Assembly (NCBI GenBank): GCA_024345305.1
Contig: BRON01000005.1
Span: 2,005,802-2,069,801 of the forward strand
DNA: 64,000 nt
Direction: 5' to 3'
Source of the DNA: Mrakia gelida
Taxonomy: Eukaryota; Basidiomycota; Tremellomycetes; Cystofilobasidiales; Mrakiaceae
The notes under the pieces are model-generated. The model worked only from the letters and a program-made list of their open reading frames with translations. It had not been told where the DNA came from and did no database searches. Shown one piece after another: positions 9,250 through 64,000 of this stretch. Numbering within the stretch: position 1 is the stretch's first letter; each line of letters starts with the position of its first letter. The translations under genes and the position numbers were made by a program.

Positions 9250-13244
<3,995 letters not shown>

Positions 13245-40161: not shown

Positions 40162-42561
40162 ACCATCACTCCTCCATACCTCCCTCACCACCCCACTCTA
40201 CTCCGAATGGCCTTCATCTTCACCACCTTCCTCCCTTCCTTGAGCGAGACGCGATCCCTGCCGCCTCCTCCTCCAACTCGGAACATCACTCATCTCCTCC
40301 CCACCTCTCACCCCTTCCTCGCTCCTCCTCCTCCTCGCTTACCCCTCGCTCCCCCTCCTCTACACCTCCTCCTGGAGCAGCCCCTCAAGCTCTCAAACCC
40401 CACTTCCTCCCTTCGGACAAGGAGCAGCCCAACGACGACGACGGATCGTTGGAAGGACGTCATCAGTCGCTCGACGCGGAGGAGGTTGACTATCAGGACG
40501 ACGAGGAGACCTTTGACGAGGCAGAGGGAGGAGCTGAGGGTACGGTTCAACTGGACAACGACCTCGATCGGAGCCAGGAGAAGGAGGAGGAGGACAACAA
40601 CCCCGACCAACCTCCTTCCCTCGACGCGTTCCCTCCAGGACAAGTCGACGAGCTCAACGGGATCGAGGAGGAGGAGGGAGCTCTTCCATTATCCTGCTCC
40701 CCACTCACCAAGCCAGGTCACAACGGACACGACGGACCGGTCGAGGTCGAGGACAAAGAGGAACCGGAACCGGTCGCGGACGACGAGGATCAGGGACAGC
40801 TCGAGGAGGAAGAGCTCGAGGAGGAAGGGGAGGAGAACCTCGTCGTGAACCAGGAGAACGTCGAGCTCGAAACAGCAGGAGATCAACAACTCGAGGATCA
40901 TCTACCCGTCGAGGAGGAGGAGGAGAACGAGGATGAACTTCAGCAGCATCAGCAGCAGGAGGAGGACGTCGGAGACAACGAGGAGTCTCGTCTGCAGGGT
41001 TGGGTTAGACGAAAGGAGGTCGATCGAATCAGAGAGGTCGCCGAAGAGTTGAAGTTGGAGGTCGGGAGGTCAAGGACGATGCTGAAGGAGCAGGATGGGG
41101 TTCTCGACGTGGCGACGCGTTCGTCCCAGAGGGACAAGTGAGTCCACCTCTCCGCTCTCTCCCAATCCCGAACCCACTCGCTGACATTCCCCTGCCCTTC
41201 CTCTCTTCAATCAGGTACAAAATCCGACAGCTCGAAGCCTCCACCGAGTTCGTTCGACCCTCCTTCCTTCTCCTCGACTCTCGCTCGCTCACCTTCGACG
41301 TGCACCCCTCGTTCTCATCTACAGGAACCTTCGGAACGACCTCGTCACCTCCAACGAGACCATCACGAACCTCAAGGCAACATGGAGAGAGCTCAGGACT
41401 GTTAGGGATCAGCGAGACGAGGTTATGTGAGTCTCGCGATTCGTCTCTTTCCTTCTTTGAACGACAAGCGAGCTGACCTCCTCCCTCTTTCACAACCAAC
41501 AGGGCTATGAACAACGAGTCTGTCTTCGAGAACGAGTGCGTTCATCCTTCCCTCTTCTCATCGCTCCCGAAGTCGCGTCGAAGACGAGCTTCCTGTCCCC
41601 GAGCTGCGTCAACCTGCCTCTTTTGGACTCGCTTCTTCTCGTACATCTTTTCAGGCGACTTGAGATGGAACTGGACGATCTCACCATGTGCGTACATCTT
41701 CCCGACATTTCCTTCGCCCACCTTAAGTCGCGTTGACTGACCTCGTCGTGATCCTCTCCTTTCCGAACAGCTCTCACGGAAACGACGTCGAGTTCCTCAC
41801 CGCTTCACTCGATCAGGTGGAGGACGAGTCGGATCGATCAGAACGGCAACTCATGATCTACGAGAAGAACTTGGAGAGAACGATGGGTGATCTCGAGACG
41901 ATGGAGCACGATCTCCAGTGAGTCTAGACGCGCTTCGACTCGTCCCTCGCGGCTCTTTCGCAAACGAGGACTGACGACGCTCCTCCTTCTCCTCACAGGA
42001 CCTCCAAGACCTACATCACCGAACTCAGTTCCAAGAACACCGCTCTCGGTCGGGAGAACCTCGAACTCCAGTCGCAGGTCAAGTGAGTTGCTCATTCCCT
42101 CTCTTTCGGACGCGCCTTCCCTCGTCGTGGAACCGCATCTGACCCCGCTCGCCTTCGCTTTCGTTTCCATCCTCAGCGATCTGGTCTTCTGCCTCGTTAC
42201 CGCTCACAAAGCTGCTCGAGGTCATCAAGCTCTTCAACGATCTGGCTCTCGCTCGTTCTCGTGAGTCAACGCAACTTCGCATTTCGATCTTCTCGACGAA
42301 ACGAACGCTGATCTCAACCCTTCTGACCCTCGTTTCGGTGCCTACGCAGGTCTCTTCAAGCCTCGAACACCAAAACTCAAACCATCCTCGCTCAGCAGCT
42401 CAAGCAGATCGACTCGCAGAGGGGTGATCTTATCAAGCAGCTCGCGTAAGTTCAGCTTCACCTCCCTTCGTCCTCGACAAAGCTCACTTCCTCGTTCCTT
42501 CCCCCTTCAACAGAGTCAAGTCGAGGCAGCTAACCAGATCGGAAGACCAAGTTCTCGTCTA
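40162..42561 (+). CDS. Acidic coiled-coil protein, truncated at its 3' end by the element array
   Basis: An acceptor at 40161 (CCCTACAG) opens a long exon (DHHSSIPPSPPHS) with an acidic, Glu/Gln-rich N-terminus; the true first exon was not found. From about 40990 the product is coiled coil, spread over small exons: EVDRIREVAEELKLEVGRSR, YKIRQLEAST, NDLVTSNETITNLKATWREL, VEFLTASLDQVEDESDRSER, ELSSKNTALGRENLELQSQV, ASNTKTQTILAQQLKQIDSQ. The last exon (VKSRQLTRSEDQVLV) runs straight into the element; the TAA stop is formed by its terminal CTAACGG. The original C-terminus is therefore missing. Function unknown; the coiled coil suggests a cytoskeletal or scaffold role. Confidence 0.55.
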
Positions 42562-45500
42562 ACGGTATGCGCCCCGTTCCTGCCTCCAGGAACGGTCGAT
42601 TCCGTGGAGTCGACTCCACGGATCCGTGGAGTCCGGACCGTTCCAGCAGCCTCCTCGGACTCCACGGACTTTGCGTCGCTTCGTTCTCCCTCCCCTTGTC
42701 ACCGAATCGCAAACGGAAAAGACGACCAGCGAGATCTACCTATGAAGCACAATGTATCAGAAGTACAGACTCATACGATAAAATCTGCATTGTCGACAGC
42801 GACTCTCCCGAGAGGTACCTCAAAACGATGAAGAGGGCGAGCTCGAGCTGACTTCCGCGAGTTCTTTTCGGAGGAGCTCAATCCTCTCTCTTTCAGCTGC
42901 CCTGTATATTCAAGGCCGAAACCGCGGATTGTAAAGAGCTGGAGTCGTTGGTACATAGCTCTAGTATGTCCCGTAACAAGGGCTTAGCTTTAGAGTGAAG
43001 ATTTGCCGACGTCTCGAGGTTGAAACGTATGAGCTCAAGCTCACCTCCCAGCTCCTCCTCCTTTCTCCTATGCAAGTCTGAGCCTCGTGGTAAGAAAATT
43101 TGCTCGCTCGAAGGGGGAACGCGTTCTCTATACCCGGCCTCCTGACTAATCTGTTTTCAGATTTTGAGTTACTGCTAGAGTCGTTGCGCAGCGGCAGCGA
43201 ACCTGTCGACGGAAGGGCCTTCTCGTTCGTTCAAGCTCAACATCGACCTCCTCCCCTCTCTCCCTCCTCTCTCGCTTACCTCCTACAACAGCAGCTGCAC
43301 TCTTCCTGGACCTCCTGCCTCTTTGATGCTCTAGGATCAACCTGGGTGATGGGAGGGTGGTTTCATAAATCGGTCTACGAAGCCGTAGACCGAAGGGGAC
43401 GAGCTCCGAGTCAATCGCGTGTCTTCGACGAGAAGTCGCGGAGCTGCTCTCTCCCCCAACCACATCGACATTGACCTCTTCCCTTGACACCTTCCTTTCC
43501 ATTTCTCACTTCCCCTTACCAACAACTTGTCAGATCCTACGAGGGACCAGCCTCCTTCCCAAGCACCCACTGGAGCAGTGCTCGAACGGAACGGCAGTTG
43601 GTGAGCTCCCTTGCCTTATCGCTCCCTTATCGCTTCCCTTCCTCAACCCCTCCTCCTCCTCTCGCAAAGGAAGGGAAGTCCTTTCTCTCCAGCTTCTATG
43701 TTGGGAGAGCATCATTTGGGGTTAATAGAACCCACTGAGAACCTGGATGTATGCTGGGAAGGTCTCGCGTTGGAAGGAAGGAAGGAGGAGCTCGCTCGCT
43801 TGCTCATGACTCGGTCTTGCCCTCCTCCTTCCCTTCCCTCCTCCACGAGCAAGCTCGATGCTGACTCTCTTTCCTCCCCTTCTCTTCCTACCAGGAACTT
43901 CTTCATCACTCCTCCTCTACTCCTATCCATCCAACGGACCCCATCCCCTCTCATCACCCTCTCGAGCTTCCTTCGAAAGCGACCTCAGCCAAACCTCCTT
44001 CCCCTTTGGAACCCTCGCTGAACGAGCGCTCGAGAGACCTTCTCGTAGGATTCAAGTGAGTCTTTTGCTTTCTGCTATGGAGGTGGGGGTAGGGAAAGGT
44101 CGGATGAGGTGTGATTTGCCTTGGGAAGGGGAGGGAAGGGAGGGGGAACGAAGAAGGAAGGAGGAGTTGCGAGCCCGAGCTGACCATCGTCCTTCCCTTC
44201 ACCCCACTCGCTCTCCCTCCTTCCCCTTGCACTCTCAGGCTTTTCCTTCAATACTGTATGTCCCTCTTGCATACACCAATCCTCCCATACCACCCATCCA
44301 CCATTTGGTTCTGTTCTGACTCTCGATTGGCCTGCTCTTGTTCGTGCTTGAGCAGATGAGCTTCCCGTGCCCGAGAGCTATCTGCCACGGCCTCTCGCCC
44401 TTCTCCACCCTCGCTAAACTCACTCAGCATGTGAAGGATATCCACCAAGCTGAAGTCCGTCTTTCTGGAGGTCTCAAAGGTGCGCTTGCATGCATCATCA
44501 CCGTGTTCGCTTCGTTCAAGCTCAACACCCATTTCTTCCTCCCTCCCTCTCGTTCTTCCATCCCCTCTCCTCTCAGTTCCTCGTGGAAGCAACAGATCGT
44601 TCTTCTGCCCTCGACCTCACTCGGAACCTCATTGCTCCCGTACCCCGGATGCGTTTCATAAGCACTGGAAGACCTGCACGGTGACTGAACCTCTGCATCC
44701 GCTCTTCCCTTCTCCTCTCGTTCACTCTTCATCTCCTTCTCCCCAACCCGACACTACCCCTCCGCCAACACAGGATCAGCTGGAGGAGGAGGTGCCTGCT
44801 TACCCTGCTCACCTAGGGGATGGGGAAGGGTTTGGTTCTGGGATGGACATAGGGGAGGGAGAGGGAGAGACCGAGCGAGGTGGTGGCGAGGGAGTTGGAG
44901 GGAGTGCGAGTGGGTTGAGCTTGAGTGGGACGAGGAAGGGGAAGGACCGCGTGGTTGTTGGTGGGAGAGAGGGTGGTGGTGGGGAGGATGGGAACCCTTC
45001 GGAAGGTGGAGGGGTTGGTGCTGCATGTGGGATGGATGGAGTCGAGGGCGAGGTCTCTTCGGACAATGGTGAGTTTCTCGCGTTCTGTTCCGTCACTCTC
45101 GTTTGCTCTCTCGCTTGAGAATATGGACTCGTGCTGATCCTCAAACCCTTCTTCCCTCCATCAGGCTCAACAGCATTGGTTCCTAGAGACGACGGGGCTG
45201 GGAACAACAGCCTCAGGGGACTCACGATCGGAGGATCTTTCGTTCGAGACGCGTTCTGGAAGGGACCTCATCTCGCCAGTTTGTTCTTCTTCTCCTCCCT
45301 CCTCCTTGCTCTCCCCCTTCCTTCCTGACCCTGACCTTTCTCCTCTTCCTCCTCTCAGCCACTCCTGCTCTCAATATCGCCTCTCTTGCTGTTAACACTC
45401 GCATCGGCCTCGTCATCTCAACCCACGAGGACTCTCACGGAGGAGGTGTTCGTCCCTCTCGCATCGGACACCATCTTGCACTCCACACTCCGTCCCTCTC

Positions 45501-46570
45501 CTCCTCCCAGCGGAAGACTCTCACCCGAGATGCCACCCACCTCCTCAACCTCTCTTCCTCTCTCGACACCTCCGACTACGCTTCCCTCGCCAACAACCAA
45601 GACGCGATCGGCCTCCTCCTCTCGACGAGTTCAGGCTCGACCGTCCCTATGGTCGAGGGACTCGCTGTGAGGTCAGGAATAGGGTGTGGGAGCTGTGGAG
45701 CTGTCTACAAGGATGGCGACTCCCTCCGAAGCCACCGTCACAAGAGGCACGGAGGAACGAACCTCGCTCCCACTCCCGCCTACTTCCAACGGCTCTTCCC
45801 CGACGCTCACCTCCCCGCCTTCGCCGTTCCTCCTCCCTCCCACGACTCCACCAACTTTGTTCCTCCTCCCCCTCCCAAGGTCCCACGATCGGATCCCCTC
45901 TCGGCATCAGCAGCCTTCCTTCTCAAGCAGCAGAACGAGATACTCTCCTCCCTTCCCATCCCCAGCGACAAGCTCGACAATTCCCTCTACCATCAACCAG
46001 TCTACCAGAACCCTCTCGGCTACGGCTCCTTCATCCGACCCTACCCTCTCGCCATCCTTCGCTCAGCCATCTCCCCCGCCCACAACTACCGATCCTCGGA
46101 CAAGACTCGAATCGAAGACCGCGACCCTCTGCGAAACGTCTGGGTCCACGTTCAGGATCTCGCCTTAGGGGTTCGGAAGTACGGGACGAACCCGAGCGAG
46201 TTCGCTGTGGCGAGGAAGATCGGGATGGGGGACGGGTCGGTGCAGATCTCGGAGGACATGGTCGAGGAAGAGCGAGGAGGGAAGGGACCGACGAGGATCT
46301 TCAAGCCGCGGCTCGCGGATTCGACCCTCAAACGATACAGCAGGGATTCAAGCTCGCTCATCCTCTTTGCCCTCAGGGTCACGCCAACGGTCTACCGAAA
46401 CCCCATCCCCATCCCTCAGGGCGAGCTCGCACCTCCTCCAATCATCTCCCCTCCTCCCTCCTCCTCCTCCTTCACCACCTCCATCGACCTTCCCTCCTTC
46501 CACACCACCGAGCGGATGGTACTCGCAGCCAACACCCTCCGTCAGGTCCTCCAGAGGGACGTCCTCGCCC
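42559..46570 (+). mobile_element. Subtelomeric recombinase-helicase element, copy 1 (truncated, 4.0 kb)
   Basis: Begins with CTAACGG fused to the coiled-coil gene and ends where copy 2 begins. It carries the palindromic left end, an untranslated leader of about 470 bases and the N-terminal zinc-finger part of the element gene. It is nearly base-for-base identical to copy 2 with a constant offset of 4,011 bases, except in its last ~260 bases, where it matches copy 3 better. Confidence 0.75.
42574..42669. repeat. Left-end palindrome block, copy 1
   Basis: Hairpin with 9-bp arms at 42574-42582/42587-42595 (arm CCGTTCCTG, loop CCTC). A perfect 20-bp palindrome at 42602-42621 overlaps a perfect 22-bp palindrome at 42612-42633, so two mutually exclusive folds exist. 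A third instance of the inner string (GGACTCCACGGAC) lies at 42657-42669. Confidence 0.8.
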
Positions 46571-46862
46571 TAACGGTATGCGCCCCGTTCCTGCCTCCAG
46601 GAACGGTCGATTCCGTGGAGTCGACTCCACGGATCCGTGGAGTCCGGACCGTTCCAGCAGCCTCCTCGGACTCCACGGACTTTGCGTCGCTTCGTTCTCC
46701 CTCCCCTTGTCACCGAATCGCAAACGGAAAAGACGACCAGCGAGATCTACCTATGAAGCACAATGTATCAGAAGTACAGACTCATACGATAAAATCTGCA
46801 TTGTCGACAGCGACTCTCCCGAGAGGTACCTCAAAACGATGAAGAGGGCGAGCTCGAGCTGA
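43029..46862 (+). pseudogene. Element gene, copy 1, truncated after the DUF3505-like region
   Basis: Starts at ATG 43029 (MSSSSPPSSSSF) and has an intron with a GTAAG donor and TTTTCAG acceptor before DFELLLESLRSGSEPVDGRA. Later exons give a C2H2-like finger (FPCPRAICHGL...LTQHVKDIHQ) and the DUF3505/OrsD-like finger (CGSCGAVYKDGDSLRSHRHK). Native sequence stops at RQVLQRDVL (46566); from there the frame runs on through the left end of copy 2 to 46862. The recombinase-like and helicase domains are absent. Confidence 0.65.
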
Positions 46863-49800
46863 CTTCCGCGAGTTCTTTTCGGAGGAGCTCAATCCTCTCT
46901 CTTTCAGCTGCCCTGTATATTCAAGGCCGAAACCGCGGATTGTAAAGAGCTGGAGTCGTTGGTACATAGCTCTAGTATGTCCCGTAACAAGGGCTTAGCT
47001 TTAGAGTGAAGATTTGCCGACGTCTCGAGGTTGAAACGTATGAGCTCAAGCTCACCTCCCAGCTCCTCCTCCTTTCTCCTATGCAAGTCTGAGCCTCGTG
47101 GTAAGAAAATTTGCTCGCTCGAAGGGGGAACGCGTTCTCTATACCCGGCCTCCTGACTAATCTGTTTTCAGATTTTGAGTTACTGCTAGAGTCGTTGCGC
47201 AGCGGCAGCGAACCTGTCGACGGAAGGGCCTTCTCGTTCGTTCAAGCTCAACATCGACCTCCTCCCCTCTCTCCCTCCTCTCTCGCTTACCTCCTACAAC
47301 AGCAGCTGCACTCTTCCTGGACCTCCTGCCTCTTTGATGCTCTAGGATCAACCTGGGTGATGGGAGGGTGGTTTCATAAATCGGTCTACGAAGCCGTAGA
47401 CCGAAGGGGACGAGCTCCGAGTCAATCGCGTGTCTTCGACGAGAAGTCGCGGAGCTGCTCTCTCCCCCAACCACATCGACATTGACCTCTTCCCTTGACA
47501 CCTTCCTTTCCATTTCTCACTTCCCCTTACCAACAACTTGTCAGATCCTACGAGGGACCAGCCTCCTTCCCAAGCACCCACTGGAGCAGTGCTCGAACGG
47601 AACGGCAGTTGGTGAGCTCCCTTGCCTTATCGCTCCCTTATCGCTTCCCTTCCTCAACCCCTCCTCCTCCTCTCGCAAAGGAAGGGAAGTCCTTTCTCTC
47701 CAGCTTCTATGTTGGGAGAGCATCATTTGGGGTTAATAGAACCCACTGAGAACCTGGATGTATGCTGGGAAGGTCTCGCGTTGGAAGGAAGGAAGGAGGA
47801 GCTCGCTCGCTTGCTCATGACTCGGTCTTGCCCTCCTCCTTCCCTTCCCTCCTCCACGAGCAAGCTCGATGCTGACTCTCTTTCCTCCCCTTCTCTTCCT
47901 ACCAGGAACTTCTTCATCACTCCTCCTCTACTCCTATCCATCCAACGGACCCCATCCCCTCTCATCACCCTCTCGAGCTTCCTTCGAAAGCGACCTCAGC
48001 CAAACCTCCTTCCCCTTTGGAACCCTCGCTGAACGAGCGCTCGAGAGACCTTCTCGTAGGATTCAAGTGAGTCTTTTGCTTTCTGCTATGGAGGTGGGGG
48101 TAGGGAAAGGTCGGATGAGGTGTGATTTGCCTTGGGAAGGGGAGGGAAGGGAGGGGGAACGAAGAAGGAAGGAGGAGTTGCGAGCCCGAGCTGACCATCG
48201 TCCTTCCCTTCACCCCACTCGCTCTCCCTCCTTCCCCTTGCACTCTCAGGCTTTTCCTTCAATACTGTATGTCCCTCTTGCATACACCAATCCTCCCATA
48301 CCACCCATCCACCATTTGGTTCTGTTCTGACTCTCGATTGGCCTGCTCTTGTTCGTGCTTGAGCAGATGAGCTTCCCGTGCCCGAGAGCTATCTGCCACG
48401 GCCTCTCGCCCTTCTCCACCCTCGCTAAACTCACTCAGCATGTGAAGGATATCCACCAAGCTGAAGTCCGTCTTTCTGGAGGTCTCAAAGGTGCGCTTGC
48501 ATGCATCATCACCGTGTTCGCTTCGTTCAAGCTCAACACCCATTTCTTCCTCCCTCCCTCTCGTTCTTCCATCCCCTCTCCTCTCAGTTCCTCGTGGAAG
48601 CAACAGATCGTTCTTCTGCCCTCGACCTCACTCGGAACCTCATTGCTCCCGTACCCCGGATGCGTTTCATAAGCACTGGAAGACCTGCACGGTGACTGAA
48701 CCTCTGCATCCGCTCTTCCCTTCTCCTCTCGTTCACTCTTCATCTCCTTCTCCCCAACCCGACACTACCCCTCCGCCAACACAGGATCAGCTGGAGGAGG
48801 AGGTGCCTGCTTACCCTGCTCACCTAGGGGATGGGGAAGGGTTTGGTTCTGGGATGGACATAGGGGAGGGAGAGGGAGAGACCGAGCGAGGTGGTGGCGA
48901 GGGAGTTGGAGGGAGTGCGAGTGGGTTGAGCTTGAGTGGGACGAGGAAGGGGAAGGACCGCGTGGTTGTTGGTGGGAGAGAGGGTGGTGGTGGGGAGGAT
49001 GGGAACCCTTCGGAAGGTGGAGGGGTTGGTGCTGCATGTGGGATGGATGGAGTCGAGGGCGAGGTCTCTTCGGACAATGGTGAGTTTCTCGCGTTCTGTT
49101 CCGTCACTCTCGTTTGCTCTCTCGCTTGAGAATATGGACTCGTGCTGATCCTCAAACCCTTCTTCCCTCCATCAGGCTCAACAGCATTGGTTCCTAGAGA
49201 CGACGGGGCTGGGAACAACAGCCTCAGGGGACTCACGATCGGAGGATCTTTCGTTCGAGACGCGTTCTGGAAGGGACCTCATCTCGCCAGTTTGTTCTTC
49301 TTCTCCTCCCTCCTCCTTGCTCTCCCCCTTCCTTCCTGACCCTGACCTTTCTCCTCTTCCTCCTCTCAGCCACTCCTGCTCTCAATATCGCCTCTCTTGC
49401 TGTTAACACTCGCATCGGCCTCGTCATCTCAACCCACGAGGACTCTCACGGAGGAGGTGTTCGTCCCTCTCGCATCGGACACCATCTTGCACTCCACACT
49501 CCGTCCCTCTCCTCCTCCCAGCGGAAGACTCTCACCCGAGATGCCACCCACCTCCTCAACCTCTCTTCCTCTCTCGACACCTCCGACTACGCTTCCCTCG
49601 CCAACAACCAAGACGCGATCGGCCTCCTCCTCTCGACGAGTTCAGGCTCGACCGTCCCTATGGTCGAGGGACTCGCTGTGAGGTCAGGAATAGGGTGTGG
49701 GAGCTGTGGAGCTGTCTACAAGGATGGCGACTCCCTCCGAAGCCACCGTCACAAGAGGCACGGAGGAACGAACCTCGCTCCCACTCCCGCCTACTTCCAA

Positions 49801-52585
49801 CGGCTCTTCCCCGACGCTCACCTCCCCGCCTTCGCCGTTCCTCCTCCCTCCCACGACTCCACCAACTTTGTTCCTCCTCCCCCTCCCAAGGTCCCACGAT
49901 CGGATCCCCTCTCGGCATCAGCAGCCTTCCTTCTCAAGCAGCAGAACGAGATACTCTCCTCCCTTCCCATCCCCAGCGACAAGCTCGACAATTCCCTCTA
50001 CCATCAACCAGTCTACCAGAACCCTCTCGGCTACGGCTCCTTCATCCGACCCTACCCTCTCGCCATCCTTCGCTCAGCCATCTCCCCCGCCCACAACTAC
50101 CGATCCTCGGACAAGACTCGAATCGAAGACCGCGACCCTCTGCGAAACGTCTGGGTCCACGTTCAGGATCTCGCCTTAGGGGTTCGGAAGTACGGGACGA
50201 ACCCGAGCGAGTTCGCTGTGGCGAGGAAGATCGGGATGGGGGACGGGTCGGTGCAGATCTCGGAGGACATGGTCGAGGAAGAGCGAGGAGGGAAGGGACC
50301 GACGAGGATCTTCAAGCCGCGGCTTGCGGATTCGACCCTCAAACGATACAGCAGGGACGCAAGCTCGCTCATCCTCTTCGCCCTCAGGGTCACGCCAACG
50401 GTCTACCGAAACCCCATCCCCATCCCTCAGGGCGAGCTCGCACCTCCTCCAATCATCTCCCCTCCTCCTTCCTCCTCCTCCTTCTCCACCTCCATCGACC
50501 TTCCCTCCTTGCACACCACCGAGCGGATGGTACTCGCAGCCAACACCCTCCGTCAGATCCTCCAGAGGGACGTCCTCACCCAGCCGAACGGGGTCTTCGG
50601 AGGAGAAGGAAGAGGAGGAGTCGAGGAGTCGAAGGAGGTTCAGGACGCCCTTCTCCAGTTCCTCCTTGCGATCTACTCCCCTCGATACTCATCCACTCCT
50701 CCTCGGGGCCAGATGGTCCTAGATCAGTTCCTAATCTGCCTTTCCCTCGCCGCCGGAGGAGGCTTTCGGGAGATCGGATCGTTCGGACCTCAGCTCGCGT
50801 CCTGCGAGTTCTTCGTTCGACTCGTCGTCTACCGCCTAGTGCTGGACGAGATTGGATGGGGAGAGGTTAGGGAGTTGGATGAAGCTGAGGTTGGAGCAGT
50901 GCCAGTGTCGAGAGGGTAAGTCGGTTGTCTTGATCGCTTTGCGGTTTCGAAACGCGTCGCTCACCTCTCTCTCTTTCTTCTTTCTCAGTCTCGACTCGCC
51001 GCTCTTCGAACTCGTCACAGCTCACCCCAACGGAGCTCAAGTCACACCCTTCGTCGTCCTTCGAGCTACTCGCTATCCCATCTCCCACGCCATCACCGCT
51101 GCTGGACCCGTCGTCTCCATCCAACCCCTCCACGACCCAGTCGAAGGCCACCTCCTCCCTCTCCTCTCCTACAACCGCTTCATCTCCCTCACCGCTATTG
51201 CCGACGCAGCCAAGGGAGCCATCGCATCAGCTGCTTCCTTGATCAAGACCCTCACCTTCTCGGCAGACCTCTCAGCAGTTGGCCGAACGATGGAAGGAGT
51301 GACGGTCGGAGGAGTTGCGGGAGAGGTTGGAGGATCGATCTTCACGGATCCATCAAACTGCATCAAGCTCGGGATACCTCGGAACCAACAGGCTCTCCTC
51401 CTCTCCCTCTCTCTCTCCAACTCCAAGCTCTGGATCTCAAACCCCTCGGATCCTCTCAAACCCCAGCTCAACCTTCCTCACGCCCGAGCCTTCCTTCACT
51501 CCCTAGCCGCCGCGAAGCTCAACCTCCTCGTCGCCATCCACCTCTCCTCCCCTGGAGGTCGAGCTTCGGAACTCGTTACTCAGCAGCTCACCCGAACGGT
51601 CGACCACGGCTCCTCTCTCTTCATCACCTCCAACCGACTCGCCGTTCGTACGGAGGTCAACAAGACAGGAACGAAGACCATCCATCGCTTCGTGTCGCCG
51701 ACCCTCGTGCCTCTCGTCATCCAGCTCTTCGGAGTCGTACAACCCTTCGCTCTCTACCTTCTCTCCCTCCTCCACTCTCTCAGCCCTCTGGACAACAACC
51801 TCGACGTTCAGACCACCTTCAGGACGTTCCTTTGGACGAACGGTGTCGGGAAGCAGATCGTTGCCGCCGACCTCAGATCCCACCTCAAGCTCGCCTTCGT
51901 CTTGTCAGGCTCGTCGTCGGGAGTCGGGCTCCAAACGGTTCGACACGCCGAAGTCTTCATCAGTCGGATCATCCTTCCTCTCCTCGGATCCGACGCTAAC
52001 GGACTCCTCGTCGCTCTGGAGACTCAGTCGAGCCAACGAGGCCACTCGCTCAAGACGGACGAGGCCGCTTACGGAAACACCGACTCCAGTGGTGGGATTC
52101 GGGACTTGGCTGCTTTTGGAGACGCGACGAATGCGATGAGGGTCGTGAGCCTGTACCAACTCGCGTTGGGAGTGGATCCTGTGAGTCTTTGCCTCCATGT
52201 TCGTTCTCGATCTTCACGCGACACCTCGTGCTGACCAACCCTCCTCTTCCCCCTCCTCCGCTACGCTACGCAGGTTCTCAAGATCGACCGCTTGCCCGAC
52301 AGGCTGGATCTGTTTCTTGGGCGTAGCTCTCATCCGTCGGTGAGTCCTTCCTCCCTTCTCTCTTCTGGCGACGTCCCTCGCCTGACTGACGCGTCTCTCT
52401 TCCTCTCCTTCTCTTCAGCTCTCCTCCAAGCGTCCCTCCTCCTCTTCTCTCTCTTCCTCCCAACCTCTCTTCAAACGTCCCACACCAGCACCACCCTCCC
52501 CTCCTCCAGTCTCAGGGTACGACGACGAAGGATCCGAGCCGATGGAGCTAAGTCGCGACGACGCGGCAGGAGGAGGAGGAGATCC
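46571..52585 (+). mobile_element. Subtelomeric recombinase-helicase element, copy 2 (truncated, 6.0 kb)
   Basis: Starts at the TAACGG of the junction with copy 1 and ends at the CTAACGG of copy 3. It keeps the left palindromes, the zinc-finger region and the whole recombinase-like region but is cut before the helicase, at a point equivalent to about 58538 in copy 3. Confidence 0.75.
46585..46680. repeat. Left-end palindrome block, copy 2
   Basis: Identical to the block of copy 1 at a 4,011-base offset: hairpin arms at 46585-46593/46598-46606, 22-bp palindrome at 46623-46644, and the third instance of the inner string at 46668-46680. Confidence 0.8.
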
Positions 52586-52588
52586 TAA
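47040..52588 (+). pseudogene. Element gene, copy 2, lacking the helicase
   Basis: Same start and exon plan as copy 1, continuing through the DUF3505-like finger (about 49690-49765) and an intron at about 50918-50989 into the recombinase-like region (LDSPLFELVTAHPNG to QRGHSLKTDEAAYGN). No frameshift or premature stop was seen up to MELSRDDAAGGGGDP, where copy 3 begins. Native sequence therefore ends between the recombinase-like and helicase domains. A finger-plus-recombinase protein could still be made. Confidence 0.6.
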
Positions 52589-52599
52589 CGGTATGCGTG

Positions 52600-52695
52600 C
52601 CGTTCCAACGCGTTGGAACGGTCGTTTCCGTGGAGTCCACTACCCGGATCCGGGTAGTCCGACCGTTCCAACAGCCCTTTTTGGACTACCCGGAC
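52600..52695. repeat. Left-end palindrome block, copy 3, with compensatory changes
   Basis: A perfect 22-bp palindrome at 52600-52621 (arm CCGTTCCAACG) and a perfect 20-bp palindrome at 52639-52658 (arm ACTACCCGGA). The same inner string recurs at 52683-52695 (GGACTACCCGGAC). Compared with copies 1 and 2, both arms of each palindrome have changed together, and the recurrence carries the same substitutions. Confidence 0.85.
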
Positions 52696-53054
52696 TTTGC
52701 GTCGCTTTGTTCTCCTTCCTCCTTCCACCGAATCGCAAACGGAAAACACGACCAGCGAGATCTACCCATGAAGCACAATGTATCAGAAGCACAGCTCTCT
52801 AGAACAAAATCTGCATCGTTGACAGCGATTCTCCCGAGAGGTACCTCAAAACGAAGGAGAGGGTGAGCTCGAGCTGACTTCCGCGAGTTCTTTTCGGAGG
52901 AGCTCCATCCTCTCTCTTTTCGCTGCCCTGTATACTCAAGGCCGAAACCGCGGATTGTAAAGAGCTGGAGTCGTTGGTACATAGCTCTAGTATGTCCCCT
53001 AAAGAGGGCTTAGCTCTAGAGTGAAGATTTGCCGACGTCTCGAGGTTGAAAGGT

Positions 53055-56000
53055 ATGAGCTCAAGCTCACCTCCCAGCTCCTCCTCCTTTTTCCTATGCG
53101 AGTCTGAGCCTCGTGGTAAGAAAATTTGCTCGCTCGAAGGAGGAACGTGTTCTTTATATCCGGCCTCTGACTAATATGTTTTCAGATTTCGATTTACTGC
53201 TAGAGTCGTTGCGCAGCGGCAGCGAACCTGTCGATGGAAGGGCCCTCTCGTTCGTTCAAGCTCAACCCCCATCTCCTCCCCCCTCCCCCTCCTCCCTCGC
53301 TTACCTCCTACAACAGCAGCTGGACTCTTCTCGGGCCTCCTGCCTCTTTGGTACTATAGGATTGACCTGGGCGATGGGAGGGTGGTTTCATACATCGATG
53401 GATCTACAAAGCCGTGGACCGAAGGGGACGAGGTCCGAGTCAACCGCGTGTCTTCGACGAGAAGTTGCGGAGCTGCTCTCTCCCCCAACCACATCGACCT
53501 CTTCCCTTGACCACTTCCTTTCCATTTCCCACTTCCTCTACCAACAACTTGTCAGCTCCTACGAGGGAGTAGCATCCCTCCCAAGGGCCCACTGGAGCAG
53601 TGCTTGAACGGCAGCCTTGGTGAGCTCCCTCGCCTTATCGCTTCCTCATCGCTTCCCTTTCCTCAACCCCTCCTCCTCTCGCAAAGGAAGGAAAGTCCTT
53701 TCTCTCGAGCTTCCATGTTGGGAGAGTATCCTTTGGGGTGAATAGAACCCACTGAGAAGGTGGATGCATGCTGGGAAGGTCTCTCGTTTGAAGGAAGAAG
53801 GGAGGAGCTCGTCGCTCGCTCGCTCGCTTATGACTCGGTCTTCCGCTCCTCCTTCCCTTCCCTCCTTCATGAGCGAGCTCGATGCTGACCCCTTTCCTCC
53901 ACTTTTCTCCCACCAGGAACTTCTCCTCCACTCCTCCTCTACTCCTAGCCATCCAACGGATCCGATCCAATTCTACAACCCTCTTCAGCTTCCTTCGAAA
54001 GCGACCTCAGCCAAACCTCCTTCCCCTTTGGAACCCTCGCTGGACGAGCTCTCGAGAGACTTTCTCGTGGACTCAAGTGAGTCTTTCGCTTTCAGTTGGA
54101 GGTAGGGGAGGTGGGATGAGGTGTCACCTGCCTTTGCAGAAGGAAGGAGAAGGAAGGAGGAGTTGCGAGCTCGAGCTGACCATCGTTCTTCCCTCTACCT
54201 CGCTCGCTCTCCCTCCTTCCCCTTGCACTCTCAGGTTCTTTCTTCAGTACCGTAAGTTGCCCTCGCATACCTCAATCTTCTCATACTATCCACCCTCCAC
54301 TTGGTTCTGTTCTGACTTTCGATTGACCTTCTCTCGTTCGTGCTCGAGCAGATGAGCTTCCCATGCTCAAGAGCGATCTGCCATGCCCTCTCACCCTTCT
54401 CCACCCTTGCTAAACTCACCCAGCATGTGAAGGATGTTCATCAAGCTGAAATTCGTCTTGCTGGAGGTCTCAAAGGTGCGCTTGCACACATCTTCTCCGT
54501 GTAGGTTCCGTTCAAGCCCAACACTCATCCCGTTCCTCCCTTCCTCTCGTTCTCCCTCCCCCATCCCTCTCAGTGCCGCGTGGAACCAACAGATCGTTCT
54601 CCTGCCCTCGACCTCACTCGGAACCTCACTTTTCCCGTACCCCAAACGCGTTTCATAAGCACTGGAAGATCTGCATCCTCACCGAACCTCTCCACCCGCT
54701 CTTCCCTTCTCCTCTCGTTCACTCTCCATCTCCCTCTCCCCAACCCGACACTCCCCCTCTGCCAACCCAGGATCAGGAGGAGGAGGAGGAGAACGCTCAC
54801 CTAGGGGACGGGGAAGGTTTTGGTTATGGGATGGACGAGGGGGAGGGAGAGGGAGAGACCGAGGGAGGTGGTGGCGAGGGAGTTGGAGAGATTACGAGTG
54901 GGTCGAGCTCGAGTGGGACGAGGAAGGGGAAGGAACGCGAGGTTGTTGATGGGAGAGAGGGTAGTGGTGGGGAGGATTGGAACCTTTCGGAAGATGGAGG
55001 AGTTGGTGCTGCATGTGGGATGGATGGAGTCGTCGGTGAGGTCTCTTCGGACGATGGTGAGTCTCTCGCGTCCTGTTCCGTCACTCTCGTTTGCTCTCTC
55101 GCTCGAGAGTATGGACCTGTGCTGATCTTTAAACCCTTCTTCCTTCCATCAGGCTCAACAGCATCGGTGCCAAGAGACGACGAAGCTGGGATTGGATGCT
55201 TCAGGAAACTCGACGTGGAAGGACTTGTCGCGTTTTGGAAAGGAGAGAGCCTCGCTTGTTCGTCCTTCATCTCCTTCTCTCCAATCTCTTGCTTCCCGAT
55301 CCTGATCTTCCTTTCTTTTTCTCTCTCTCTCTCAGCCACGACCAACCTCCACGCCGCTTCTCTAGCCATCAACATGAGGATCGGTCTCGTCGTTTCCACC
55401 CACGAGGACCCGTACGGAGGAGGAGTCGCACCATCCGGACTCACCGCTCACCTACTCAAGTTCTGCCCTTCCCTCTCCTCCTCCCATCGAAAAACCCTCG
55501 TCCGAGAAGCAACCCTCCTCCTGAACCTCGCGAACTCCTTCAAGCACTCCATCTACGCTCCCCTCTCCGATCGGAAACTCGCAAGTCAGCTGCTCCTCTC
55601 GAGACGGTCCACCTCGACCTTCCCTATGGTCGAGGGCATCGCCGTGAGGATGGGAGTAGGGTGTGGGAGCTGTGGTGTGGTCTCCAAGGATGGCGACTCC
55701 CTCCGAAGCCACCGTCACAAGAAGCACGGAGGAACGAATCTCTCCTCCGCTTCCGTTCACTCCCAACGACTCTTCCCCGACGCTCACCTCCCCGCCTTCG
55801 CCGTTCCTCCTCCGTCTCACAACTCCATCAACCTCGTTCCTCCTCCCCCTCCCAAGGTCCCACGATCGGATCCCTCCTCAGCATCAGCAGCCTTCCTTCT
55901 CGAGCAGCAGAACGAGATACTCTCCTCCCTTCCCACCCCCAGCGACAAGCTCGACAATTCCCTCTACCACCAACCAGTCTACCAGAACCCTCTCGGCTAC

Positions 56001-59000
56001 GGCTCCTTCATCCAACCCTACCCTCTCGCCGTCCTCCGCTCAGCCATCTCCCCCGCCCACAACTACCGGTCCTCGGACAAGACTCGAATCGAGGACCGCG
56101 ACCCTCTGCGAAACGTCTGGGTCCACGTTCAGGATCTCGCCTTAGGGGTTCGGAAGTACGGGACGAATCCGAGCGAGTTTGCTGTGGCGAGGAAGATCGG
56201 GATGGGGGACGGGTCGGTGCAGATCTCGGAGGACATGGTCGACGAAGAGCGAGGAGGGAAGGGACCGACAAGGATCTTCAAGCCGCGGCTCGCGGATTCG
56301 ACCCTCAAACGATACAGCAGGGATTCAAGCTCGCTCATCCTCTTTGCCCTCAGGGTCACGCCAACGGTCTACCGAAACCCCATCCCCATCCCTCAGGGCG
56401 AGCTCGCACCTCCTCCAATCATCTCCCCTCCTCCCTCCTCCTGCTCCTTCACCACCTCCATCGACCTTCCCTCCTTCCACACCACCGAGCGGATGGTACT
56501 CGCAGCCAACACCCTCCGTCAAGTCCTCCAGAGGGACGTCCTCACCCAGCCGAACGGGGTCGTCGGAGGAGAAGGGAGAGGAGGAGTCGAGGAGTCAAAG
56601 GAGGTTCAGGACGCCCTCCTCCAGTTCCTCCTTGCGATCTACTCCCCTCGATACTCATCCACTCCTCCTCGGGGCCAGATGGTCCTAGATCAGTTCCTAA
56701 TCTGCCTTTCCCTTGCTGCTGGAGGAGGCTTTCGGGAGATCGGATCGTTCGGACCTCAGCTCGCGTCCTGCGAGTTCTTCGTTCGACTCGTCGTCTACCG
56801 CCTAGTGCTGGACGAGATTGGATGGGGAGAGGTTAGGGAGTTGGATGAAGCTGAGGCTGGAGCAGTGCTAGTGTCGAGAGGGTAAGTCGGTTGTCTTGAT
56901 CGCTTTGGGGTTCGAAACGCGTCGCTCACCTCTCTCTTTCTTCTTTCTCAGTCTCGACTCGCCGCTCTTCGAACTCGTCACAGCTCACCCCAACGGAGCT
57001 CAAGTCACACCCTTTGTCGTCCTTCGAGCTACTCGCTATCCCATCTCCCACGCCATCACCGCTGCTGGACCCGTCGTCTCCATCCAACCCCTCCACGACC
57101 CAGTCGAAGGCCACCTCCTCCCTCTCCTCTCCTACAACCGCTTCATCTCCCTCACCGCTATTGCCGACGCAGCCAAGGGAGCCATCGCATCAGCTACTTC
57201 CTCGATCAAGACCCTCACCTTCTCGGCGGACCTCTCAGCAGTTGGCCGAACGATGAAAGGAGTGACGGTCGGAGGAGTTGCGGGAGAGGTTGGGGGATCG
57301 ATCTTCACGGATCCATCGAACTGCATCAAGCTCGGGATACCTCGGAACCAACAGGCTCTCCTCCTCTCCCTCTCTCTCTCCAACTCCAAGCTCTGGATCT
57401 CAAACCCCTCGGATCCTCTCAAACCCCAGCTCAACCTTCCTCACGCCCGAGCCTTCCTTCACTCCCTCGCCGCCGCGAAGCTCAACGTCCTCGTCGCCAT
57501 CCACCTCTCCTCCCCTGGAGGTCGAGCTTCGGAACTCGTTACTCAGCAGCTCACCCGAACGGTCGACCACGGTTCCTCTCTCTTCATCACCTCCAACCGA
57601 CTCGCCATTCGTACGGAGGTCAACAAGACAGGAACGAAGACCATCCATCGCTTCTTGTCTCCGACCCTCGTGCCTCTCGTCATCCAGCTCTTCGGAGTCG
57701 TACAACCCTTCGCTCTCTACCTTCTCTCCCTCCTCCACTCTCTCAGCCCTCTGGACAACAACCTCGACGTTCAGACCACCTTCAGGACGTTCCTTTGGAC
57801 AGACGGTGTCGGGAAGCAGATCGTCGCCGCCGACCTCCGATCCCACCTCAAGCTCGCCTTCGTCTTGTCAGGCTCCTCGTCGGGAGTCGGGCTCCAAACG
57901 GTTCGACACGCCGAAGTCTTCATCAGTCGGATCATCCTCCCTCTCCTCGGATCAGACGCCAACGGACTCCTCGTTGCTCTGGAGACTCAGTCGAGCCAAC
58001 GAGGCCACTCGCTCAAGACGGACGAGGCCGCTTACGGAAATACCGACTCCAGTGGTGGGATTCGGGACTTGGCTGCTTTTGGAGACGCGACGAATGCGAT
58101 GAGGGTCGTGAGCCTGTATCAACTCGCGTTGGGAGTGGACCCTGTCAGTCTTCGCCTCCATGTTCGTTCTCGATCTTCACGCGACACCTCGTTCTGACCA
58201 ACCCTCCTCTTCCCCCTCCGCTACGCAGGTTCTCAAGATCGATCGCTTGCCCGACAGGCTGGATCTGTTTCTTGGACGTAGCTCTCATCCGTCGGCGAGT
58301 CTTTCCTCCCTTCTCTCTTCTGGCGACGTCCCTCGCCTGACTGACGCGTCTCTCTTCCTCTCCTTCTCTTCAGCTCTCCTCCAAGCGTCCCTCCTCCTCT
58401 TCTCTCTCTTCCTCCCAACCTCTCTTCAAACGTCCCACACCAGCACCACCCTCCCCTCCTCCAGTCTCAGGGTACGACGACGAAGGATCCGAGCCGATGG
58501 AGCTAAGTCGAGACGACGCGTCAGGAGGAGGAGACAGCGCGAGAGACCCAGTCTTGGAGGAGGAGAGGAGTTCGATTCTTTCATCAAGTGCGGTGGAAGT
58601 ATCCTCAAGAAGCCGGACTCCTCTCGATCTCCAAGCTCTCACGGACGGTGTCGACTTCGACGACGACATGGACGACTTCGACGGATCCAGTCCCCCTCCT
58701 CCTCCTCCTCCGCCTCCTCGCGTTCATCCCGAACCCTCCCCTCTCCTCGTTCCTCCTCCCTACTCCCAAGCGGACGTCATCACCAGCCTTCTTCGGGAGT
58801 GGACCGGCAACCCATCAGCGGAGCTTTACCAAAACCAGCTCGAAGCTGCTGCCAAGATCATCCGCGGAGGAACCGATTACCTTCTCAGCAGCCCCGTTGG
58901 GTCGGGCAAGACCTTCCTCTCCCTCCTTCGAGCTCTCCTCGACCGCAGTCACCCTACTGGTCGTCTCGTCGTCTTCATAACACCCTTCCGCTCCATCCTC

Positions 59001-60864
59001 GCTACGCTTCACGCTCGATGTCGGAACAGCAGTCTCGACGTCCACACCCACCCCTTCCCTCCCGAAACCCCTCTCGTCAGCCTCCGAGGTGTCCTCCTCA
59101 TCTCGATCGAGCAGCTAGGCAACAAGCAGCTTCGAGAGGACCTCGCTTCCCTCGGCACCATAGGGAAGGTCCTCCAGTTCGTCGGGGATGAGGCTCACAC
59201 CTGGGCGACTCAGTCGGATTGGAGGCCGTCGATGGGCTACGTCTCCCTCGCTCGACTCGCGCGAGCTCCCTTCCTCCTTCTCTCCGGCAGCTGGACTGAG
59301 GGAGCACGGAGACACGCCGGAACACTCCTTCACTCAACCCTCACCGAGCTCAACTTCCCTCTTCGTCGTCCTGGAGTCACGTTCCACGTTGTGAAGCTGG
59401 ACTCCAGCGACGACGTCTTCAAGACGATGATGGATACTTTCGGGAACGGTCACCTCTCTGCTCCTAGAGCTCCAGTCATCATCTTTGGATTCACCAAGAA
59501 GGAGCTGGACGCGCTACGAGGAAGGCTGGTGGAGGAGGCGGAGAGGAAGGGTGTCGAGGTGAGGACGGAGGTCTACTACGCGGTGACGGGTGTGGAGGAG
59601 ACAAGGAAGATGGATGGAACGAGCAAGGATTGGGAAGCCGGAAGGATCGACTACCTGTTCTGCACAACAGCGGGGATTCAAGCTCTGGACTGTCCGGTGA
59701 GTCAAACACAACCCCCCTTGCGTCGCGTCGGGTCAGGACGAGAACAACAACCGAACTCTCTTCCTTCCTCTTCCAGCAATGCAACCTCGTCATCTTCCTT
59801 CCTCACCCAAAAGGATGGACAGTTTCCGAGCGCGTTCAGGGAGGAGGTCGAGGTCGAGACTGGGAGACCGTCGTCTGGGACCTCCAACGGAAGAAGTCGA
59901 CGCTTTTCGTCGACCACCCAAACGGGTTCGACCCTCGCTTCCGCTCTCCAAACAGCTGCATCGCCAAAGCACTGGAGGAGCAGCTCAACGATTTCTCGTC
60001 GGGAGACTGTGGGCTCTGTACAGAATGTCGTCGTCGTCGCGTTGCCCCTCCTCAATCTCCCTCCCTCCCCTCCCACCGAACCACCAACCTCCTCCCCTCA
60101 GCCATCTCTCCTCCCCTCATCAGCTCTCTCTTCCCTACCATCCCTCACTCCTCCGAGATCCCCGAAGCCTACCTCCAATCCCGTCAGCTCCATACTCAAG
60201 CAAACATCCTCCACGACGAACTTGCCCATCTCCTCCGAACCCTCGACTCCCTCTGCTCGTCGTGCATCCTCCTTCACCCAACCACTCAACTCTCTCCCAA
60301 CGCCACCTCACTCCACAAGTACGGATGCCCCAGCAAGAAGAAAGAGTACGTTTTCGATTCTGTTTGCCTCTCCTTCCTGATCGCGACGCGGTCTGACGTC
60401 GCTTTCTTCTCTTCTCTCGCAGGTGCTCGTACTGTACTGGCTGCAACTGGAGGAGTCTCGAGACATGCGCAGTCCTTACCGCTCAACGCTCTACCTACTC
60501 CAACTGCTGTTTCGGATGCCTCTTCCCAATCTCGCTGCACGACGAGGCGGCGGAGGGTGGGATGGGAGGAGGGTGTCCGTTCAGAGCTGCGAAGATGGTT
60601 GTTCCTCTTTGCATGCAGCTGTTCCGGGATCGGAGTTGGAGGGAGAGGGCTATCGAGGAGGGGAGGATTGGATCAGACTGGGGGTGGGTGTCTGACGGAG
60701 AAGGGATACTGCTGGGGACGAGGGAATATTACAAGTGGAAGATCACGAAGGAGAAGGACGTGGAGTTCTCGTTCTGGCTAGGTTTGCTCTCCCCTACACT
60801 TCCTTTCACCAACGCTGCTCTTCTCCTCCTCTGGTTCTACAAGACTGTCTCTCGCCCTACGTAG
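53055..60864 (+). CDS. Zinc-finger / tyrosine-recombinase-like / RecQ-like helicase fusion protein
   Basis: Start ATG 53055; intron 53116-53185; stop 60862-60864; roughly 2,000 residues over about ten exons. Order: C2H2-like finger (FPCSRAICHAL...LTQHVKDVHQ, about 54358-54450); acidic linker; DUF3505/OrsD-like finger (CGSCGVVSKDGDSLRSHRHK, about 55660-55725); helical region (DRDPLRNVWVHVQDLALGVR); recombinase-like region (about 56950-58050) with GGRASEL Arg, KTGTKT Lys, VRHAEVFISR and GHSLKTDEAAYG; then helicase motifs I (SSPVGSGKT, ~58890), II (GDEAH, ~59190), III (LLSGSWTE), V (CTTAGIQALDCP) and VI (ERVQGGGRGRD, ~59830); C-terminal Cys-rich region (CSYCTGCNW). Resembles fungal telomere-linked RecQ helicases. 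The recombinase assignment is inference. One intron near 58297 has a GC donor where copy 2 has GT. Confidence 0.75.
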
Positions 60865-60960
60865 TAACTCGTGTCCTCCTCTTTCTGTACTGGTTTTGAA
60901 TCTTGTTGCGCTCCGCTTTCGTTTCTTCTCCGGTTCTCTTTGATGTCTCTTGTCTGAAGT

Positions 60961-61271
60961 TGGAGTCGTTGGTACATAGCTCTAGTATGTCCCGTAAAAA
61001 GGGCTTAGCTTTAGAGTGAAGATCTGCCGACGTCTCGAGGTTGAAAGGTATGAGCTCAAGCTCACCTCCCAGCTCCTCCTCCTTTCTCCTATGCGAGTCT
61101 GAGCCTCGTGGTAATAAAAGTTGCTCGCTCGAAGGAGGAACGTGTTCTTTATATCCGGCCTCCTGACTAATATGTTTTCAGATTTCGATTTACTGCTAGA
61201 GTCGTTGCGCAGCGGCAGCAAACCTGTCGATGGAAGGGCCCTCTCGTTCGTTCAAGCTCAACCCCCATCTT
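60961..61271 (+). mobile_element. Fragment of a fourth element copy
   Basis: Matches the leader and first exons of copy 3 (GGAGTCGTTGGTAC through the ATG at 61048, the intron and the GSKPVDGRALSFVQAQ exon), then diverges after CAACCCCCATCT. It lacks the left ~375 bases with the palindromes and everything downstream. It is more like copy 3 than copies 1 and 2. Confidence 0.75.
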
Positions 61272-62014
61272 CCCTTGCCCCTCGCTCTATACATGCGCTT
61301 CCCCCTTGCCCCTCCTTCTCCATTATGAGTCTATGGTAGTATAGGACCAACCCTATCCACTTTTTATCTTTCGCCAGGGCTGGATGCAGGAGAAAATGAG
61401 CTCGATCAATGTGAGCTCCACCTCCACCTCCTCCCCTTCCTTCCCTCCATCTTCTCTCCTTCCGTTCTCCTCACCTCTTGCTCGGATCGCAATGGGACTT
61501 CGGGGGTATAGTAGGGCAGCTAGGGTGCCTAGGTGGAAGGTCTCAGATTTCGAGGGATGTATACGGTTGAGGCTCGTCGCTCATGGAGTCATGTTGAGCT
61601 TGACTCTCCTTCCTCCCATGCATCCGATGCTGCTGAGACTCTCGTACCAACTCTATCCTCTCGTTCTTTCTTTCCTACCACTCTAGTATACCTCCTCTTC
61701 CATCGCGAAACACTCCCACTACCCCTCTTGCTCCACCTCTCCCTCCCTCGACCTCCCCACTCCGTGCGCTGGCAGCTCAACCCTTCTCCTTCCTTTCCTG
61801 TGTCGAGTCTGTCGAGGCGAGTTCTCGCTCCTTTTCCTCGATTCTGGTGGATAAATCGGGGTTATATGAAGTGGGGCCATGGTCCGGGAAGTAGAGGGAT
61901 GCCTTAGGAGTGTTGGAAGGTCTCTCTCGCTCGTCGAGTGAGCTCTCGTTGAGCTCACCGCTCCTCCCCTTCCCTGCATCTCGACCTTGCCTCCCTTCGA
62001 CGTTCGTCAGTTCT
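61272..62014. other. Unrecognised subtelomeric DNA
   Basis: No gene with splice context was found. Short frames exist but carry no recognisable motif. Composition is less GC-rich than in the arm. Confidence 0.3.
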
Positions 62015-63390: not shown

Positions 63391-63485
63391 AAACCGTCTA
63401 TGAGTGGTGGAGACCAGGGACAGCGCTGGGGTGTTGGGCTGGAGAAGGGAAGGAAAGGACGCGTTGGAAGAGTGTTGGGTACGAC

Positions 63486-63896
63486 GGAAGGAGTGGGAGA
63501 GTAGTAGAGTAGTGAAAGTGAAGAAAAAGTAGAGAAACAGTGTTGGGTAGTAGGTGAGTTGGTTTGGAGGTGTTTGGGTGAAGAAAATTGAAGAGAGAGA
63601 GAAGAAGTTGAGGAGTTGGAGTGAGAAGGAGAAAAGAGTAGGGGAAGTAGTGAGGAGGTTGAGGAAGTAGAGAAGGTGAGAAGGAAGTGAAAGTGAAGGT
63701 GAAGTGTAGTAGTAAGTGTGAGAAAGTGTGGGAGGGTGTTGGAGTAGAAAAGGGGAGGTGTGGAAGGGAAAAGGAGTTGGAAAAAAGTGAAAAAGAGAGT
63801 TGGAGTGGGTTTGAGAGTGAAGTAGTAGTAGGGAAGTGGTTTTGGAGTAAAGAAAGTGAGAAGGGAGTGTATAAGAGTGTTTGTGGAAAGTTTGAA
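63486..63896 (+). other. Cytosine-free G/A/T-only strand next to the telomere
   Basis: After C at 63485 the plus strand has a single C (63538) up to the first telomeric repeat. The sequence is not a simple repeat: it is a mixture of GTGAG, GTTGG, GAAG and GGGTG-like strings. The transition from normal composition happens within about 100 bases. Confidence 0.9.
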
Positions 63897-64000
63897 GGGT
63901 TAGGGTTAGGGTTAGGGGTTAGGGTTAGGGTTAGGGTTAGGGTTAGGGTTAGGGTTAGGGTTAGGGTTAGGGTTAGGGTTAGGGTTAGGGTTAGGGTTAG
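63897..64000 (+). repeat. Telomere, (TTAGGG)n
   Basis: Uninterrupted TTAGGG repeats in the G-rich-toward-the-end orientation run to the end of the window, with one TTAGGGG variant in the third or fourth unit. This marks the right end as a true chromosome end. Confidence 0.98.

Follow-up and report, generated by a model that had tools for sequence, protein, structure and literature searches.

Yeast Y' elements are terminal, helicase-encoding sequences that exist in long and short forms and as same-direction tandems, sometimes with telomere repeats between the copies, and Drosophila HeT-A and TART and Magnaporthe MoTeR are retroelements that build same-direction stacks at chromosome ends, with one end constant and the other truncated. 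TATE, likewise telomere associated, is classed as a retrotransposon. Subtelomeric RecQ-like helicases have been described in several fungi, their role being left open in the accessible part of that report (PMC7473861), and an OrsD domain is reported for the Ustilago maydis protein UTASb in the available sections of two papers (PMC10532341, PMC7473861). Here we analyzed a stretch of 64,000 nucleotides from the basidiomycete Mrakia gelida, hereafter the window, which forms the right end of contig C5 (BRON01000005.1, positions 2,005,802 to 2,069,801) in a genome assembly (GCA_024345305.1) of 34.86 Mb and 25 contigs, and which holds stacked copies of a helicase-encoding unit with a defined left end. 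Other contigs are denoted likewise, with positions after a colon.

The attachment pattern of this unit, with its location, its orientation and its constant left end, is well supported, and in nearly all copies the left end is exact to the base. We consider it probable that the unit is mobile and terminal, belongs to the telomere-linked-helicase (TLH; Y'-like) type and re-caps lost chromosome ends, left end first.

The stacked array and its left ends

Three copies of the unit lie on the plus strand of the window. Copy 1 (42559..46569, 4011 bp) and copy 2 (46570..52584, 6015 bp) each have a complete left end and are interrupted by the next copy, copy 1 at unit position 3962, and copy 3 (52585..63895) is a long unit of about 11.3 kb running from its left end to the terminal TTAGGG repeats of the window (63896..64000, plus strand). 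Copy 3 served as the reference unit, with unit position 1 at 52585. Copies 1 and 2 were 99.8% identical over 4012 bp, and copies 2 and 3 were 90.0% identical over 6050 aligned positions. Self-BLAST of the window gave no distal resumption of copy 1 or copy 2, each of which stops exactly where the next one starts. Thus, the preliminary description of this DNA was right that the first two copies stop after 4.0 and 6.0 kb and that no copy resumes, and nested insertion is ruled out since no copy in the window does so. The array limit that it placed at 60960 has to be moved, as copy 3 continues beyond it through a second direct repeat, unique DNA and 330-bp repeats to the telomere.

Each copy starts with CTAACGG followed by palindromes (42559, 46570 and 52585, all on the plus strand). 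The heptamer belongs to a 13-mer whose usual form is CTAAC[C/G]GTATGCG (52585..52597 in copy 3, plus strand, and also at 42559 and 46570). CTAACGG also occurs at 51996 (plus strand, within the gene), where the remainder of the 13-mer is lacking, and at 22901 (minus strand), and neither was counted as a left end. Palindrome A (52600..52621, plus strand, 22 bp), whose offset is unchanged in copies 1 and 2, is followed by the central palindrome B at 52638..52659 (plus strand, 22 bp). The three ends had been called identical, which is true of CTAACGG; in its palindromes, copy 3 departs from copies 1 and 2 on both arms and in a compensating manner.

This compensation was examined in 41 distinct left ends from the whole genome, 5 of 46 variants (composites or deletions) being left out. 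Watson-Crick pairing reached 97.3% for palindrome B and 92.9% for palindrome A, values matched by 0 of 1000 shuffles, and shifting the partner by 1 to 3 columns lowered pairing to at most 36.1% (A) and 29.0% (B). Both sides had changed across copies in 8 of the 11 pairs of palindrome B. The sequence has thus turned over with its complementarity retained, which is what a hairpin or a dimer site would be expected to show. Position 6 of the left end (C or G) and bases 14-15, before palindrome A, were seen by eye to vary in several combinations, as if repeatedly reset in otherwise like copies. Mammalian C-strands begin mostly with 5'-CTAACC, as far as the accessible text of two reports goes (PMC12316455, PMC6167521). 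We hypothesize that the left end is a mimic of the telomere C-strand, and put this no more strongly since Ustilago maydis prefers 5'-AACCCT, according to the available part of one of these (PMC6167521).

Distribution and junctions of the left ends

The whole genome was scanned with the left-end pattern, allowing up to 3 mismatches and using the reversed pattern as a control. This revealed 37 forward and 35 reverse matches (72), versus 1 and 1 (2) for the control, which excludes chance. The 71 left ends that were read comprise the scan matches minus weak or chance rows (C2:860542, internal with 3 mismatches, and C20:839502, C24:15647 and C7:10375, with 2 to 3 mismatches), plus those seen directly; C3:2304956 and C3:2270382 were removed from this set. 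Sixty-nine of the 71 lay no more than 36.5 kb from a contig end and were oriented toward that end. Three extra left ends outside the pattern (near C11:1551660, C18:11389 and C22:4621) also face a contig end, at a distance of under 12 kb, and were excluded from every count; the one on C11 comes after another very short copy. Very short copies occur in series, with lengths of 21, 21, 42 and 142 bp. Among 37 pairs of neighboring copies, 5 had exactly the same left-end variant, where 0.59 would be expected (9 of 20000 shuffles); this suggests the same arm, or its sister, as a frequent donor.

Left ends were found on host DNA, in the interior of other units, on the 330-bp repeats or slightly past them, and on TTAGGG tracts. 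They sit directly on TTAGGG at C1:4726, C12:1396564, C22:241310 and C1:3242891; the first three were counted as one event because they have an identical flank and left-end variant, and so the telomere-joined left ends represent at least two separate events. The preliminary description had expected the copies to be subtelomeric, in the same orientation relative to the telomere and with variable distal ends, and had proposed repeated attachment at chromosome ends. The expected layout largely holds, the interrupted positions differing across copies, and location, orientation and the two or more joins on TTAGGG speak for the attachment; the element's role as joining agent we only infer.

Sequence preference at the joint was determined on 59 unique non-telomeric flanks, with two C22 left ends near 229130, which belong to the 71, left out. 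The base at -1 was C in 37, T in 17, G in 4 and A in 1, hence a pyrimidine in 54 of 59; position -2 was a pyrimidine in 45, and positions -3 to -20 of these flanks showed no clear base preference. The interrupted target was known in 21 unique cases, from which the window junction between copies 2 and 3 was excluded, its GGA-run flank being unaligned. The next target base was C, the first base of the element, in 19 of the 21 (P=2e-8), and CT in 8, so that the joint usually has one or two bases in common with the left end. These preferences are referred to below as the YY|C rule. The interrupted unit positions range from 365 to 10810. A strict microhomology to a longer telomeric GGG template is not claimed, since CC (13) was not favored over TC (16) and CT (11). 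Pure tandem duplication was also rejected: it fits some repeats (a junction at unit position 8294 on C10, C11 and C18) and does not account for 59 different non-telomeric flanks.

At C3:2270382, the 13-mer with a different palindrome, of 24 bp, joins a TTAGGG tract to DNA resembling large-subunit ribosomal RNA (rRNA), facing into the contig. The region C3:2269900-2270900 represents either DNA appended to a chromosome end or a wrongly joined contig. Nuclear ribosomal DNA was rejected as its source, given a best Rfam match to the bacterial large-subunit model and 43.6% G+C; the rRNA-like DNA may be of organellar type. Such ends might thus serve other DNA too, as this 13-mer with another palindrome would imply. 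Telomere-like tracts of about three repeats were also seen inside host or unit DNA, two of them beginning exactly at CTAACCC. They were not used as support for fusions, as several have only about three repeats and they could be telomerase repair insertions, which they resemble.

Right sides, anatomy and gene

We examined 35 of the 50 contig ends. Unit DNA was present at 31 and telomere repeats at 18. At all 18 telomere-bearing ends the right part of the unit stops 0-48 bp before the telomere, and the gap is free of C; on ends other than that of the window, the telomere begins at varying points within or just past the C-poor strand described below. Among the 17 ends without telomere repeats, 13 stop inside unit sequence and 4 have no unit (C8 right, C17 left, C24 left and C25 left). 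At none of the 35 ends did normally directed telomere repeats cap a unit truncated further in. Terminal copies are right-complete; where a copy is truncated, a newer one mostly lies over it. With the right side kept at 18 of 18 telomere-bearing ends, truncation looks like later end loss rather than incomplete addition. The pattern points to an end being lost first and a complete unit being added afterward; alternatively, it could reflect selection against uncapped ends. At the left end of C1, the telomere repeats are followed by bacterial vector-like DNA (C1:1-1024) with partial matches to Escherichia coli plasmid records, perhaps a residue of telomere cloning.

The order of the unit is the 13-bp left end, palindromes, direct repeat, gene, direct repeat, unique DNA, 330-bp repeats, C-poor strand and telomere. 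The first direct repeat, DR1 (52963..53274 in copy 3, plus strand, about 305 bp, from unit position 379), has plus-strand counterparts by self-BLAST at 42937-43241 in copy 1 and 46948-47252 in copy 2. A second DR1-like stretch behind the gene, DR2, occupies 60958..61270 (plus strand, from unit position 8374), and the 305-bp match of the near-left-end segment within it spans 60958-61262. Further right on the same strand are the 330-bp subtelomeric tandem repeats (62126..63305) and the C-poor strand (about 63485..63895), where unit positions 10901-11050 contain 2 C and positions 11051-11311 contain none. Elsewhere, short units (about 3.5 kb; e.g., C1:8784, C1:4726 and C6:2050864) have positions 1 to about 701 joined straight to 8374 onward; lacking the DR1-DR2 interval, they have the layout expected from recombination between the two direct repeats.

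The Pfam scan covered five open frames, the exons upstream lying outside it. The plus-strand features of the gene in copy 3 are an exon with an OrsD-like and C2H2-like part (55374..56881), a middle exon with a tyrosine-recombinase-like order of motifs, R..SEL / K / RH / GH / Y (56952..58143), and a DEAD/DEAH helicase core (58833..59240), the helicase part continuing beyond a likely intron at 59697-59776. The helicase core matched Pfam DEAD with E=2.5e-6 and 27.8 bits against a cut-off of 26, and its finer RecQ assignment was made by eye. The OrsD match was weak, under the Pfam cut-off of 26.6 in copy 1 (E=0.0005, 20.9 bits) and under the cut-off in copy 3 as well (E=0.027). The five frames yielded no Pfam reverse transcriptase domain, the mark of telomeric retrotransposons of the HeT-A, MoTeR and Athena type, in line with the preliminary description. 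Neither an HUH nuclease nor a Pif1 helicase was listed by Pfam on these frames, no specific terminus search for a Helitron end (3' hairpin and CTRR) being included. None of the roughly 8000 best candidates scored per search passed the threshold as a protein homologue, a direct comparison with a named TLH protein not being part of these searches.

In the middle exon, R-x-S-E-L, K, R-H, G-H and a tyrosine follow in the order of the invariant residues of XerD, with nine residues from H to Y as in XerD and longer spacings elsewhere. The pattern, which was selected after viewing the sequence, was matched by 0 of 200000 shuffles, and in the six frames of the window it occurs twice only, in copies 2 and 3. 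Between these copies the middle exon had a synonymous divergence (dS) of 0.059 and a nonsynonymous divergence (dN) of 0.008 (dN/dS of about 0.14), and the preceding exon had a dS of 0.185 and a dN of 0.080 (dN/dS 0.43); the protein has thus been under constraint. Moreover, 31 of 33 matches covering at least 327 of the 413 middle-exon residues were stop-free.

Across the window, Rfam gave nothing at the gathering threshold, and the interior part holds two inverted pairs (16450-16698 with 27211-27462 and 18298-18459 with 25745-25906) of 75-76% identity, perhaps related genes.

Proposed re-capping, its rivals and known systems

On the reading that we favor, the unit would have one defined end, the left one with its 13-mer and covarying palindromes, and its other end would be the chromosome's own telomere. 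A chromosome end would be lost within host DNA, within an older unit or near the telomere tip, and the exposed 3' end, preferably YYC, would then join, or serve as primer on, the left end of a unit that lies elsewhere, whether on the sister chromatid, at a different chromosome end or in a linear copy. The unit would be carried through to its telomere, and repeated loss and re-capping would produce stacked copies that are intact on the left and interrupted by the next copy on the right. The protein with its tyrosine-recombinase-like and helicase parts may make or use the defined end, the transfer would presumably copy rather than cut, and the host may profit from the re-capping. The evidence consists of products, from which the actor and template of joining would have to be read back. 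It is conceivable, though we regard it as doubtful, that the unit represents a novel class of mobile DNA elements in which only one end is defined by DNA, and whose protein, a TLH fused to a tyrosine-recombinase-like domain, recognizes a hairpin mimicking the C-strand (5'-CTAAC) and attaches whole ends to breaks.

Ordinary subtelomeric exchange, in which passive Y'-like repeats without a dedicated end spread by homologous recombination and break-induced replication, is an unlikely source of the whole pattern. The one-event copies on C1, C12 and C22 and the junction at unit position 8294, which is repeated on C10 (twice), C11 and C18, show that such exchange also takes place, but it does not yield one constant left end on 59 non-telomeric flanks that follow the YY|C rule. 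An element that inserts internally by its left end near a telomere, in the manner of a Crypton, Helitron or integron, and then loses the distal fragment would fit the two left ends far inside contigs, and the continuation of the target with C in 19 of 21 cases, together with three recurring positions, resembles a target preference. Yet the sequence read revealed neither a second defined end nor a resumed target, telomere repeats carry left ends as well and 69 of 71 face the contig end, so that we hold this route to be quite improbable.

We give even less credence to RNA-templated addition, in which telomerase or some other reverse transcriptase, acting in trans, would copy onto breaks an antisense transcript that reaches from the telomere to the left end. 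The constant end, the one-base overlap and the 5'-CTAAC phase of the telomere C-strand do resemble target-primed copying, the serial very short copies resemble aborted copying, and chromosome-end antisense transcripts of Ustilago maydis have been amplified by reverse transcription PCR, their characterization being incomplete in the portion of the report available (PMC10532341). Set against this, the five scanned frames contain no reverse transcriptase, and the right side is kept at 18 of 18 telomere-bearing ends; yet only completed ends may survive.

Several observations weigh against re-capping by a mobile terminal unit. A new addition event was not observed, and the 17 of 35 ends that lack telomere repeats may stop short of their true tips. 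Unit positions 3962, 6309/6310 and 10423 recur with different left ends, so that the targets may be non-random, and the YY|C rule is broken at -1 by the telomere-joined cases (G) and by 5 of the 59 other flanks. For the palindromes, both-side changes were not above shuffles (B, 8 versus a mean of 7.1; A, 3 versus 3.7), and the palindrome statistics ignore the relatedness of the copies. The tyrosine-recombinase identity is a matter of motifs: Pfam gave no integrase match to the middle exon, profile-profile comparison of this exon with XerD, FimB and FimE was negative, and two AlphaFold2 models were of low confidence (mean predicted local distance difference test scores, pLDDT, of 33.8 and 38.6) and left the fold unconfirmed. 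The action of the protein on the left end is put forward as a proposal.

Location provides further contrary cases. Internal copies with two ends had been named beforehand as evidence against attachment at chromosome ends; internal left ends do exist, C15:1069024 and C23:131293 lying 197 and 131 kb from the contig end that they face, but a second defined end was found in neither, over the 8.0 and 4.8 kb read and with no systematic search for target duplications. The former can be aligned as far as unit position 5339, after which come about six CCCTAA repeats, inverted, a layout that fits an old end-to-end fusion and could alternatively stem from repair; the latter is a short form followed, by eye, by retrotransposon-like coding sequence. 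In addition, unit fragments with no left end seen occur at C8:1741344 and C15:1192474, a diverged unit remnant lies at C3:2253205-2253803, and the flank at C23:184872 is unit DNA in inverted orientation. The fragments on C8 and C15 have a common junction, at which a unit truncated at position 2641 meets inverted telomere repeats and host DNA.

In the open-licence literature searched, we found no account of a DNA element that behaves in this way. If our reading is true, chromosome ends would have a means of maintenance in addition to telomerase, and the telomeric retrotransposons would have a DNA counterpart. A helicase element of this kind may explain the purpose of a widespread subtelomeric helicase gene family, and the constant left end and the junction rule make it testable whether such genes are the engines of re-capping elements; should TLH genes generally belong to them, end capture would be the TLH function.

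Compared with known systems, the unit shares the overall form of yeast Y' elements (terminal, with a helicase gene, in long and short forms and in one direction), a likeness of form and not one from protein comparison, and it differs in that most joins read here are without telomere repeats and that its left end is constant. HeT-A, TART and MoTeR are alike in their same-direction stacks, constant at one end and truncated at the opposite one, and differ in that no reverse transcriptase was found here and that the terminal telomere-bearing copies keep their right side. The Drosophila-like array of the preliminary description is apt for the stacking, but the constant end lies on the 5' side of the gene, opposite to the Drosophila elements. 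The possible tyrosine-recombinase-like domain, seen as a motif only, recalls Cryptons and TATE; Cryptons differ from a unit with a helicase gene, the main text of the Crypton paper being without the words "helicase" and "RecQ," and in place of two ends and internal insertion we found one defined end, with 69 of the 71 left ends close to a contig end. Its gene and its position place the unit near the TLH: it is subtelomeric and multi-copy and has a superfamily 2 helicase domain, and, like UTASa and UTASb of Ustilago maydis and the RecQ genes of Agaricus bisporus var. burnettii, as presented in the accessible sections of these papers (PMC10532341, PMC7473861), it combines a subtelomeric position and a RecQ-like helicase with full and truncated copies. 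It stands apart from the TLH, as described in those sections, by its defined left end, its covarying palindromes and its one-ended joins to varied DNA and telomere tips.

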